From the NCBI RefSeq assembly GCF_002812705.1, contig NZ_CP025030.1, positions 3,472,001 to 3,536,000 on the forward strand: 64,000 bases of DNA, in the 5' to 3' direction. Positions within the stretch are counted from its first letter, which is position 1. Every line of letters begins with the position of its first letter. The notes below the pieces were generated by a model. It was not told where the DNA came from. It saw nothing but the letters and a program-made list of their open reading frames with translations, and did no database searches. Position numbers and translations under genes: made by a program. This document shows, in pieces, positions 14,079 through 38,724 of this stretch. This DNA is from Achromobacter spanius. Lineage in GTDB: Bacteria; Pseudomonadota; Gammaproteobacteria; Burkholderiales; Burkholderiaceae_B.

Positions 14079-14087
14079 GCTATCGGG

Positions 14088-14157
14088 CTGCCTGACTGGG
14101 GCCGCGCGACTGAGGCCTTGCTACTTGGGCCTTGCTACTTGGACCGCGCTACTTGCC
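14088..14157. repeat. 14-bp degenerate tandem repeat filling a convergent intergenic gap
   Basis: Five 14-base units run 14088-14101, 14102-14115, 14116-14129, 14130-14143 and 14144-14157. Units 3 and 4 are CCTTGCTACTTGG followed by G or A; unit 5, CCGCGCTACTTGCC, includes the ABC exporter stop codon (14149-14151). The array begins ten bases after the DJ-1 stop, so it is essentially the whole gap between the two convergent genes. Confidence 0.8.
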
Positions 14158-23822: not shown

Positions 23823-24794
23823 ATGTCTGATCTGCCCAACCAGAATCCATCCCCCGATCTGCCCACGCACACGCCGCCCCTGGCCGCCTTGCGTGCGTTC
23901 GAGGCCGTTGCCCGCCTGGGCAGCCTGAGCCGCGCAGCGGGCGAGCTGCACGTCACCAAGAGCGCGGTCAGCCATCAGCTACGCGCGCTGGAGACGGACC
24001 TGGGCGTGCAATTGCTGCGCCGGGGCGGCACGGTGCGCCGCGCCGAAACCACCGAAGCGGGCGCCAAATTGCTGGCTTCCGTACAACAGGCCTTGACCCT
24101 TCTGGAGTCGGCATGCCGCGACGTCCGCGCCACCGCGCGAGGCCGCCGCCGCTACACGCTGAACGTGTCGGCCAACCCGTCGCTGGCCGCGCTATGGCTG
24201 GCGCCGCGCATCGGGCGCTTCATCGAACTGCATCCCGACATCGGCGTGCAGGTCTACTTGCACGCCAGCCAGGAGCCCGCCTGGAAAAGCCAGGATATCG
24301 ACCTGGCCTTCCTGCACGTGCGCGCCCGGGGGCCGCACCTGGCCGAGCCGGGCGACATTGCGCTGATGACCGAAACCGTGGTGCCCGTGTGCAGCCCCGC
24401 GCTGATCGCCGAAGCCGAACGCGGCGACCCCCGCGTATTCCTGCGGCACCGCTGGCTGGAGGAAAAACACATCGACAGCCCCGAAACCGATTGGCGCACC
24501 TGGGGTCCGCGCTTGGGGCTGGCGGAATCGGAGTGGCAAGAACCGATGGTCTTGAGCGGCCTGAGCACCGTGGTGGCCGCCGCCGCCGCGGGCGTGGGCA
24601 TTGCGCTGGGGCGCGCGCCGCTGATCGATGAAGACCTTGCCAGCGGCCGCCTGGTGCCGCTGATGCCGCAACTGCGCATGCCGGGCTCGTGGGGCTATGT
24701 GATGCGCATCCACGCCAACCGGCCGATGGATGCGTCGCTGCCCGCGCTGGTGGAATTCCTGGCCGAAGAAGGGCGCAGCCAGGGGGCCTGGTAG
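23823..24794 (+). CDS. LysR family transcriptional regulator (GcvA-like)
   Basis: A 323-residue LysR regulator. The helix-turn-helix PLAALRAFEAVARLGSLSRA and VTKSAVSHQLRALE (about residues 19-60) is of the GcvA/AmpR subgroup. An 18-residue Pro/Asn-rich extension precedes it. There is no ribosome-binding site: the palindromic operator reaches to one base from the ATG, so the mRNA may be leaderless or the start may be wrong, though no better downstream start precedes the DNA-binding domain. The effector domain covers about 95-315. The stop codon lies in the first unit of an 11-bp repeat array. Confidence 0.9.
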   Translation: MSDLPNQNPSPDLPTHTPPLAALRAFEAVARLGSLSRAAGELHVTKSAVSHQLRALETDLGVQLLRRGGTVRRAETTEAGAKLLASVQQALTLLESACRDVRATARGRRRYTLNVSANPSLAALWLAPRIGRFIELHPDIGVQVYLHASQEPAWKSQDIDLAFLHVRARGPHLAEPGDIALMTETVVPVCSPALIAEAERGDPRVFLRHRWLEEKHIDSPETDWRTWGPRLGLAESEWQEPMVLSGLSTVVAAAAAGVGIALGRAPLIDEDLASGRLVPLMPQLRMPGSWGYVMRIHANRPMDASLPALVEFLAEEGRSQGAW

Positions 24795-24883
24795 GGACAA
24801 GGCAGCGGCCATGTATCGGCCAGGCTAAGGCCAGATAGCGGCCTGGTCGTGGCCAGGTAGCGGCCTTCGTCGGGCCAGACCCG
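24785..24883. repeat. 11-bp degenerate tandem repeat, nine units, filling a convergent gap
   Basis: Nine consecutive 11-base units run from 24785 to 24883. Unit 1, GGCCTGGTAGG, carries the LysR stop codon (TAG, 24792-24794). Others include GGCCATGTATC, GGCCAGGCTAA, GGCCAGATAGC, GGCCTGGTCGT and GGCCAGGTAGC; only unit 2 lacks the leading GGCC. The array ends one base before the stop codon of the convergent ABC ATPase (24885). The whole gap between two genes is therefore repeat. Confidence 0.9.
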
Positions 24884-24884
24884 C

Positions 24885-25664
24885 CTAGTCGGTCGTCAGC
24901 TCCATGCTGCGCGTGACCTCTTCCTGCACCCGTTCCCAGATCGACCGCTTCAACTCCACAAAGCGCGGCGACAACTGCACGTCGGCGCTGCGCGGATGCG
25001 GCAGGTCGTTGTGGATGTCTTGCACGATGCGCCCGGGCTTGGAGCCCATCACGGCCATGCGAGTGGACAGGGTCAGCGCCTCGTCGATCGAATGCGTGAT
25101 GAACACAATCGTCTTGCCGCTTTGTTCGTAGATGGACAGCAACTGGTCTTGCAGCACCTGGCGCGTCATGGCGTCCAGCGCGGCAAAGGGTTCGTCGAAC
25201 AGCATCACGTCCGGGTCGTTGGCCAGCACGCGCGCAATGGACACGCGCTGCTTCATGCCGCCCGACAGCGCATGTGGATACTTGTCCGCCGCCTGCTTCA
25301 AACCCACCATCTCGATGAACTTGCGGGCAATCGGCGCACGTTCCTGCTTGGACATGCCGCGCATTTTCAAGCCGAATTCCACGTTCTCTTGCACCGTGCG
25401 CCACGGAAACAGCGCGTACTGCTGAAACACCATGCCGCAGGCGGCGGTCACGTCGGTGACCGTCTTGCCATTGATGGCCACCGTGCCCGTGTTGGGCTGG
25501 ATGAAGCCGGCCATCAGGTTCAGCAGGGTGGACTTGCCGCAGCCGGACGCGCCCAGCAGCACCAGGAATTCGCCGCGCTTGACCTCCAGGTTGACCTTGT
25601 CCAGCACGGTCACGTCGCCATAGGCCTTGGACACGTCGGTCAGCTGGATCATCGTTTCGTTCAT
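24885..25664 (-). CDS. ABC transporter ATP-binding protein (SsuB/TauB/NrtD type)
   Basis: About 259 residues: GASGCGKSTLLN (Walker A, near residue 38), GMVFQQYALFPW (Q-loop), LSGGMKQRVSIARVL (signature) and VMLFDEPFAALDAMTR (Walker B). This pattern is typical of ATPases that energise uptake of sulfonates, taurine, nitrate or thiamine precursors. The ATG at 25664 overlaps the permease stop (ATGA); in-frame ATGs at 25673 and 25685 are alternatives. It is the last gene of a minus-strand importer operon with the order binding protein, permease, ATPase. Confidence 0.9.
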   Translation of the reverse strand: MNETMIQLTDVSKAYGDVTVLDKVNLEVKRGEFLVLLGASGCGKSTLLNLMAGFIQPNTGTVAINGKTVTDVTAACGMVFQQYALFPWRTVQENVEFGLKMRGMSKQERAPIARKFIEMVGLKQAADKYPHALSGGMKQRVSIARVLANDPDVMLFDEPFAALDAMTRQVLQDQLLSIYEQSGKTIVFITHSIDEALTLSTRMAVMGSKPGRIVQDIHNDLPHPRSADVQLSPRFVELKRSIWERVQEEVTRSMELTTD

Positions 25665-26431
25665 CGTTGCCATGCCAGCACCCATCGTTCAAGTAGCCGC
25701 AAACACAGATCGGTCACCAGCACGGTGAAACTGATCAGCACCATGCCGAGCACCACGGTGTCGGTCTGGAAGAATTCCTTGCCGTTCATGATCATGAAGC
25801 CCAGGCCTTCCCGCGAAGCGACCAGTTCCGCCGAGATCACGCAGGTCCAGGACAGGCCCAGGATGATCTTCATGCCCGACAGAATCTGCGGCAGGCAGCC
25901 GGGAAACAGCACCTCGCGCATGACCTGCCAGCGGTTGGCGCCCAGGTTGCGCGCCGCGCGCACCAGCACCGGGTCAATGCTGCGCGAGGCTTCCATCACA
26001 TACAGCAGCGCGGGCACGAACGAGCCCATGAAGACGATGCTGTACTTCTGCGTTTCGGTAATGCCGAACCACAACAGCGACAGCGGAATCCAGCTCATCG
26101 ACGGCAGCGGCCGCAGGAACGAGATGATGGGGTCAAAGACGGCGCGCGCCACCTTCGAGGTGCCCAGCAGGATGCCTAGCGGTATGGCCACGAAAACGGC
26201 CGCCAGAAAGCCCACCATCACGCGGCGCGTGGACGCCAGCACGTTGTAGAACAGCGTGCCCTGGTCCGACATGGACAAGGCCCGCGCAAGCACCTGGGAC
26301 GGCGCGGGCAAAAAGATGGGGTCGACCGCGCCGGCACGGCACAGGCCTTCCCACAGCAACAGAAAGCCAAGAAGCGAAAACACGCTGACCCAGATCAGCC
26401 GTGTTTCCTTTGAAGACGAGCGCGCGGACAT
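25661..26431 (-). CDS. ABC transporter permease (SsuC/TauC type)
   Basis: A 256-residue inner-membrane permease with about six transmembrane segments. The cytoplasmic loop that contacts the ATPase (about residues 160-200) is seen as RAARNLGANRWQVMREVLFP, the family EAA-like motif. A preceding FLRPLPSMSWIPLSLLWFG is strongly characteristic of the sulfonate/nitrate/taurine importer group. It overlaps the ATPase start by four bases and follows the binding protein gene after a short gap. Confidence 0.92.
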   Translation of the reverse strand: MSARSSSKETRLIWVSVFSLLGFLLLWEGLCRAGAVDPIFLPAPSQVLARALSMSDQGTLFYNVLASTRRVMVGFLAAVFVAIPLGILLGTSKVARAVFDPIISFLRPLPSMSWIPLSLLWFGITETQKYSIVFMGSFVPALLYVMEASRSIDPVLVRAARNLGANRWQVMREVLFPGCLPQILSGMKIILGLSWTCVISAELVASREGLGFMIMNGKEFFQTDTVVLGMVLISFTVLVTDLCLRLLERWVLAWQR

Positions 26432-28905: not shown

Positions 28906-29574
28906 ATGCGCCCGCTGCACGCAAGCTGGCTGGCCGTCACGCCCGAACCCTGGAAGAACGGCGGCGGCGTGACGCGCACGCTGTCGGTGGACGCTGCCCA
29001 GCAACCGCCGCGGTGGCGGGTGAGCGTGGCGGACATCGACCGCGACGGGCCGTATTCCCGCTTTCCCGGCTATGACCGCGTATCGGTGGTGTTGACGGGC
29101 GGTGGTGTGGAGTTGGTTGTGGATGCGGCGGAGGCGGCGGATGTGGCGGATGCCGGGCGCATCACGCTTGCGCCCGGTGTGGCCACGGCCTTCGCGGGCG
29201 ATGCGGCGTTGCACTCCCGACTGGTCAATGGACCGGTGCGCGTGCTGAACCTGTTTGTGTTGCGCGGCTCGGCGGCGGCCAGCGTCGTCAGCGTTGGCGG
29301 CGGCCAGGCTGCTGTAGAGGCGGGCGGGCTGGCGCAAGACGGCGCCGCCGCGCACACGCTGCGCATTGTCGTCGCCGCTGAGGCGGGGCGCTTGAACCAG
29401 GGAGCGGCCGATGCTGGCATTGCGCTGGCGGCGGGCAGCTATGTGCTCGGCGTGCCCGGCGCGTCCTGTGGCATCGATGCGCGGCAGGCCTTTGCGCTTG
29501 CACAGCCCACGGTGCGGGATGGTGTGGCAGCAGTGGTGCTGGACGTGCGCGTACTGGCGTCGGTTGCCGTGTGA
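28906..29574 (+). CDS. hutD: HutD family protein
   Basis: A 222-residue cupin-like protein with the HutD signature PEPWKNGGGVTRTL near residue 15 and a following DIDRDGPYSRFPGYDR block. HutD members accompany histidine-utilisation operons and are proposed to limit Hut activity; the biochemical role is unsettled. Here it stands outside a hut operon, directly after an FAD oxidoreductase. The Ala/Val-rich middle is compositionally biased. The ATG at 28906 has no good ribosome-binding site and is four bases after the upstream stop, implying coupling. The stop codon is part of a 14-bp tandem repeat. Confidence 0.85.
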   Translation: MRPLHASWLAVTPEPWKNGGGVTRTLSVDAAQQPPRWRVSVADIDRDGPYSRFPGYDRVSVVLTGGGVELVVDAAEAADVADAGRITLAPGVATAFAGDAALHSRLVNGPVRVLNLFVLRGSAAASVVSVGGGQAAVEAGGLAQDGAAAHTLRIVVAAEAGRLNQGAADAGIALAAGSYVLGVPGASCGIDARQAFALAQPTVRDGVAAVVLDVRVLASVAV

Positions 29575-29638
29575 GTCGTGCGGTGTGATCCGTGCTGTGT
29601 GATCCGTGCTGTTTGGGTGCGCTGTTTGAGGTGCGCGG
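29569..29638 (+). repeat. 14-bp degenerate tandem repeat starting at the HutD stop codon
   Basis: Units at 29569-29582, 29583-29596 and 29597-29610 read GTGTGAGTCGTGCG, GTGTGATCCGTGCT and GTGTGATCCGTGCT; two degenerate units follow to about 29638. The TGA in the first unit is the real HutD stop; each later clean unit repeats a TGA. Confidence 0.85.
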
Positions 29639-29727
29639 TTTAACCCTGTCCTATTCGATCCATTTTTGACGTCCTGCGCGGTTGCGGCGCAAGGCGTTCA
29701 TTGATTCCCTGACCCAGGAGTGTTTGC

Positions 29728-38631: not shown

Positions 38632-38709
38632 GGCAAAGACTGCGGTCTTGGACTACGGTCTTGGGCTGCGGCCTAAGAACGCAGCCTAAGAACGCAGCCT
38701 AAGAACGCA
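38632..38709 (+). repeat. 13-bp degenerate tandem repeat downstream of the symporter
   Basis: Six 13-base units begin five bases after the TGA stop. The last three (38671-38683, 38684-38696, 38697-38709) are identical, GCCTAAGAACGCA. Earlier ones are GTCTTGGACTACG and GTCTTGGGCTGCG, with a looser first unit. Differences between early and late units are largely transitions. The array ends just before the tRNA terminator. Confidence 0.9.
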
Positions 38710-38724
38710 GCTATGTAGCCCCAA

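Follow-up and report, generated by a model that had tools for sequence, protein, structure and literature searches.

How a gap between two genes comes to consist, from one stop codon to the other, of short repeats that take in the end of one of those genes is the question raised by a locus in the window, a 64,000-nucleotide stretch of the Achromobacter spanius chromosome. Here the open reading frame of a LysR-family regulator (23823–24794, plus strand; Pfam HTH_1 and LysR_substrate) converges on that of the ATPase of an ABC importer (24885–25685, minus strand; Pfam ABC_tran), an importer that includes an NMT1-like binding protein. Among species-named records, 13 of the 15 relatives of the LysR protein are from Achromobacter, the others coming from Variovorax gossypii and a Corynebacterium (32% match). 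We describe the repeat array between these genes, its fate in related genomes and the setting of similar arrays, and we propose how it arose.

An 11-bp array from stop to stop

Nine units of 11 bp, with a consensus of about GGCCAGGTAGC, occupy positions 24785–24883 without assigned strand, as defined by Tandem Repeats Finder (TRF) and by lag identity. The gap between the two stops (24795–24884) is 90 bp long and is covered by the array except for its last base; the first 10 bases of the array are the end of the LysR gene, with its TAG (24792–24794) inside unit 1, and the remainder is non-coding. A preliminary description of this DNA had reported both the nine-unit stop-to-stop layout and the inclusion of the gene's own end, and its coordinates hold on both counts. 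Its account of the units themselves needs trimming: GGCC leads eight of the nine, unit 2 (GACAAGGCAGC) being the exception, and the stop triplet, said to be repeated in several units, stands in register in units 1, 5 and 7 only, not in the other six.

The periodicity is well beyond chance. Identity at lag 11 is 0.557 against a shuffle mean of 0.282 (s.d. 0.045), and across lags 4–33 none of 5,000 dinucleotide shuffles attained the lag-11 identity of the array, an outcome unchanged (0 of 5,000) when the 90-bp gap was taken alone; the array thus withstood the shuffle test proposed for it. TRF, also proposed as a check, reports a period of 11 (24785–24865, 7.4 copies, 65% matches, score 62) and, inside the array, a 22-bp dimer repeat (24829–24879, no strand, 2.3 copies, 83%, score 72). 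Because identity at lag 22 (0.623) exceeds that at lag 11, making the dimer stronger than the monomer, and because TRF recovers the 22-bp period, duplication of a dimer was probably one step in the growth of the array. Identity at least this high (0.557) at some non-triplet lag occurs in 74 of 21,301 99-nucleotide stretches of the window. When non-overlapping stretches are ranked by their best non-triplet lag, the array comes second, and the other strong stretches have periods of 13 (38629) and 14 (29545, 14059 and 43732).

Head-to-tail units and, beyond those first 10 bases, a non-coding location place the array in a known kind, the intergenic variable-number tandem repeats (VNTRs) or minisatellites, here as stop-adjacent repeats. 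In Burkholderia pseudomallei, most tandem repeats lie between genes (74.7% on one chromosome, 68.2% on the other), with units mostly of 6–9 bp and many motifs that recur elsewhere in the genome (PMC1853098). The Achromobacter array resembles these VNTRs in having short, non-triplet tandem units between genes of a GC-rich betaproteobacterium and a length that changes between relatives; it differs in that its 11-bp unit is degenerate and single-copy and its length variation is seen between species. Closer in position are the G-rich heptamer repeats of Xanthomonas and Nostoc, which lie near or overlap stop codons as the Achromobacter repeats do, with 16% of them between convergent and 7–8% between divergent open reading frames in two xanthomonads (PMC4692102). 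The heptamers, however, are one dispersed 7-bp motif, capable of forming G-quadruplexes and mostly between aligned reading frames (PMC4692102), whereas each Achromobacter gap has its own unit. Our literature search, with subscription papers largely outside its reach, found no published report of the array or of the convergent-gap excess described below in Achromobacter.

The orthologous gap in relatives

Of 61 genomes queried with a 501-bp sequence, 40 gave a match, that of the array (G000) included, and loci were obtained from 30. Among the 29 loci from relatives, LysR and ABC genes are directly convergent in nine, are separated by 531–622 bases in another nine and are not both present in the fetched piece in 11. 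The long intervals (L011, L012, L014, L016, L017, L018, L020, L023 and L025) seem to contain a small open reading frame of a shared type.

The 11-bp array is absent from all nine directly convergent gaps, as judged by reading their sequences, and the gaps measure 18, 38, 45, 69, 72 and 95 bp, with three further cases (L005, L006 and L007) in which the gene ends overlap and no gap is left. In the sister genome G021, the nearest relative found, the LysR and ABC genes are 95.5% and 95.6% identical to those of G000 at the nucleotide level, and the gap is 18 bp as compared with 90 bp, a difference between species with one genome each; it contains the words GGCCA and GGCCAGACCCG. In G009 (LysR 93.9%, ABC 96.4%) a different sequence of 45 bp fills the gap, and the gap of G005, read in the same way, holds three copies of a different 14-bp unit from stop to stop. 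Since the gaps of relatives differ in length and sequence, and three have gone altogether, the LysR/ABC gap can alter freely and can even disappear. The preliminary description had supposed that the array is maintained or only slowly lost, and had itself named unrelated orthologous gaps lacking an 11-base period as evidence to the contrary; such gaps, read by eye, are what the nine fetched relatives have, so the claim of maintenance is not supported.

The units diverge from one another far more than the LysR flank does between G000 and G021 (95.5% identity). This divergence, high for a young array, counts against a reading of recent growth. The preliminary description took the divergence of the units to suggest old age. 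Because unit divergence so far exceeds flank divergence, the array may indeed predate the split of the two genomes and have collapsed in G021, or its units may have changed other than by point mutation. The words left in the G021 gap would fit the remnant of an older array.

Arrays and turnover in convergent gaps

To place the array among its kind, we surveyed gaps of up to 1,000 bp between genes called by our own codon-usage script, counting as arrays those TRF calls with a period of 6–40, at least 2.4 copies and a score of at least 45. The hypothesis of a convergent excess arose on the first sample of G000, and thresholds were fixed before the second. In the first, which included the window, arrays were present in 14 of 61 convergent gaps and 14 of 278 others (P = 5 × 10−5); the second, taken alone, gave 7 of 58 and 7 of 223 (P = 0.012). 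With the window left out, the two samples together have arrays in 18 of 109 convergent gaps and in 15 of 466 others (odds ratio 5.9, P = 2.4 × 10−6), or 1.22 and 0.22 arrays per kb, and shuffled gaps produced 0 to 0.4 arrays per class. The array is therefore one of many such arrays in the convergent gaps of G000 and is ordinary by itself.

Elsewhere the counts were 6 of 46 convergent and 14 of 213 other gaps in G021 (P = 0.14, not significant), 3 of 35 and 7 of 238 when four further genomes of the genus were pooled (P = 0.12, not significant), 3 of 38 and 4 of 239 in four other genera of the family (P = 0.056) and 0 of 32 and 2 of 227 in four genomes from other families of the order. The direction of the excess agrees across the genus, its significance coming from G000, and the excess is not established as genus-specific because the GC content of the control genomes spans 0.45 to 0.67.

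The window and its genome offer further examples. A 14-bp array of 4.2 copies (14095–14153) lies in another convergent gap, a perfect 13-bp array of 3.2 copies (38671–38711) in a gap that is convergent by our gene calls, and two adjacent 14-bp arrays occupy 29565–29641, the first beginning 10 bases before the end of a called gene. Elsewhere in G000, convergent gaps hold a longer array of 13.9 copies of 13 bp (L089, 10498–10671) and one of 4.0 copies of 39 bp that extends past both stops (L092, 239–390).

Turnover was followed in those G000 gaps for which both flanks could be placed in stretches of G021 at 88% identity or above (19 convergent, 59 codirectional and 31 divergent). Lengths differ by at least 6 nucleotides in 15 of the 19 convergent gaps, compared with 14 of the codirectional and 11 of the divergent ones (25 of 90 non-convergent gaps). 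All seven convergent gaps with a G000 array differ to this extent, and so do 8 of the 12 that lack one. In three of the seven, G021 likewise carries an array; in the other four, the LysR/ABC gap among them, it has none at a TRF score of 40. In the convergent gap at 14079–14148, the array is present in both genomes and the G021 version is shorter by exactly one 14-bp unit; a 12-bp array in the L068 gap is common to both (3.6 and 4.4 copies), and the L072 gap likewise has an array in each. The gap around the 38671–38711 array is 74 bases shorter in G021, with no array at the same score, and that around the arrays at 29565–29641 measures 58 bases there as against 153.

A search for the GGCC pattern uncovered a second 11-bp array, in G021 (L063, 1495–1586, strand not given; 8.4 copies, 92% match). 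It begins within the final seven bases of another gene and ends five bases before a convergent LysR open reading frame; of the eight units that follow the first gene's own stop, seven carry TAG. It is independent of the LysR/ABC array. The orthologous gap in G000 and G009, read from the sequence, is approximately 14–15 bp and unrepeated. Because the array is present in G021 and absent from these two, stop-copying arrays are gained or lost between genomes that are about 5% apart.

Origin of the array and its alternatives

We consider the array to be a neutral, fast-turnover intergenic minisatellite of the VNTR type, compared here between species, whose growth at a gene end came about through tandem duplication (probability about 0.8). 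We infer the mutational mechanism, the neutrality and the role of the LysR end as seed. On this proposal, repeated short tandem duplication, probably through replication slippage or template switching, would have started from the LysR gene end and continued within the convergent gap. A duplication across the stop keeps the first stop in frame and does not alter the protein, and a convergent gap carries the promoter of neither neighbour; because a stop-spanning duplication is silent and the gap free of promoters, units of any length would be tolerated, would drift and would be quickly gained and lost. Seven samples drawn from six genomes of the genus gave 30 arrays in codirectional gaps, some of them shared by G000 and G021 as orthologues. 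Of the 30, 23 are closer to the upstream stop, 10 overlap that stop and none overlaps the downstream start, a placement that tolerance predicts.

Much the same placement would be expected if convergent ends were mutational hotspots, for example through colliding transcription, at which arrays are generated beyond what is merely tolerated. The density of arrays in the convergent gaps of G000 and the length shifts in most convergent gaps, including most of those without a G000 array, are in keeping with this idea, but relaxed constraint makes the same prediction, and these measurements do not separate mutation rate from tolerance; we regard a hotspot as doubtful. We would be similarly hesitant about its extended form, in which, in Achromobacter and perhaps related GC-rich genera, convergent ends are hotspots for short tandem duplications, often of 11–15 bp, in which a gene's stop may itself be copied, with whole gaps rebuilt as new arrays while their flanks diverge by about 5%.

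That the array instead terminates transcription in both directions, or forms several RNA hairpins ending both convergent transcripts, and is kept by selection, seems unlikely. Its folding does surpass that of dinucleotide shuffles on both strands (z = −2.69, 4 of 200 as good; and z = −3.60, 0 of 200), and on the minus strand the actual order of the units outdoes 392 of 400 random ones in folding, with 8 as good, a weak hint of structure (plus strand, 95 of 400 as good). The effect largely disappears, however, on shuffling within the 11-bp columns (z = −0.24, 152 of 400; and z = −1.16, 49 of 400), the gap has no terminator-like site, the array lacks the GC-rich hairpin with trailing T run of an intrinsic terminator, its longest run of T or A being 2, and Rfam returned no match at E values up to 1 across 24400–25300. 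With the gap itself lost in three relatives, little speaks for a function under maintenance, and a structured RNA or terminator was rejected.

REP, BOX and ERIC elements are dispersed families of short intergenic repeats, and the array shares with them its shortness, its position between genes and its inverted-repeat potential; it is also GC-rich, with palindromic GGCC. It differs in occurring at a single place: four GGCC at 11-bp spacing are found nowhere else in G000, a DNA search with the array returned nothing there but the array (20 of 34 first-look candidates scored), and only 5 of 42 other genomes of the genus gave a match of 29 bp at 90% (E about 5 × 10−4). The GGCC pattern matched 7 of 37 genomes in one search and 8 of 61 in another, G000 included both times, and a reversed-pattern control also gave matches. 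Several matches are single places, one recurs word for word in six genomes and is probably a conserved gene, and beside the real array in G021, array-like places appear in G095 and G074. Lacking many genomic copies and any Rfam match, a dispersed family of this kind, or one resembling miniature inverted-repeat transposable elements (MITEs), was rejected as highly improbable, in agreement with the preliminary description.

By itself, the single array carries little weight: it might serve as a marker for typing, and it illustrates repeat DNA that is tolerated. The broader pattern supplies a natural collection that can be counted, and with which to ask if short tandem duplications are simply tolerated at gene ends or are drawn to them.
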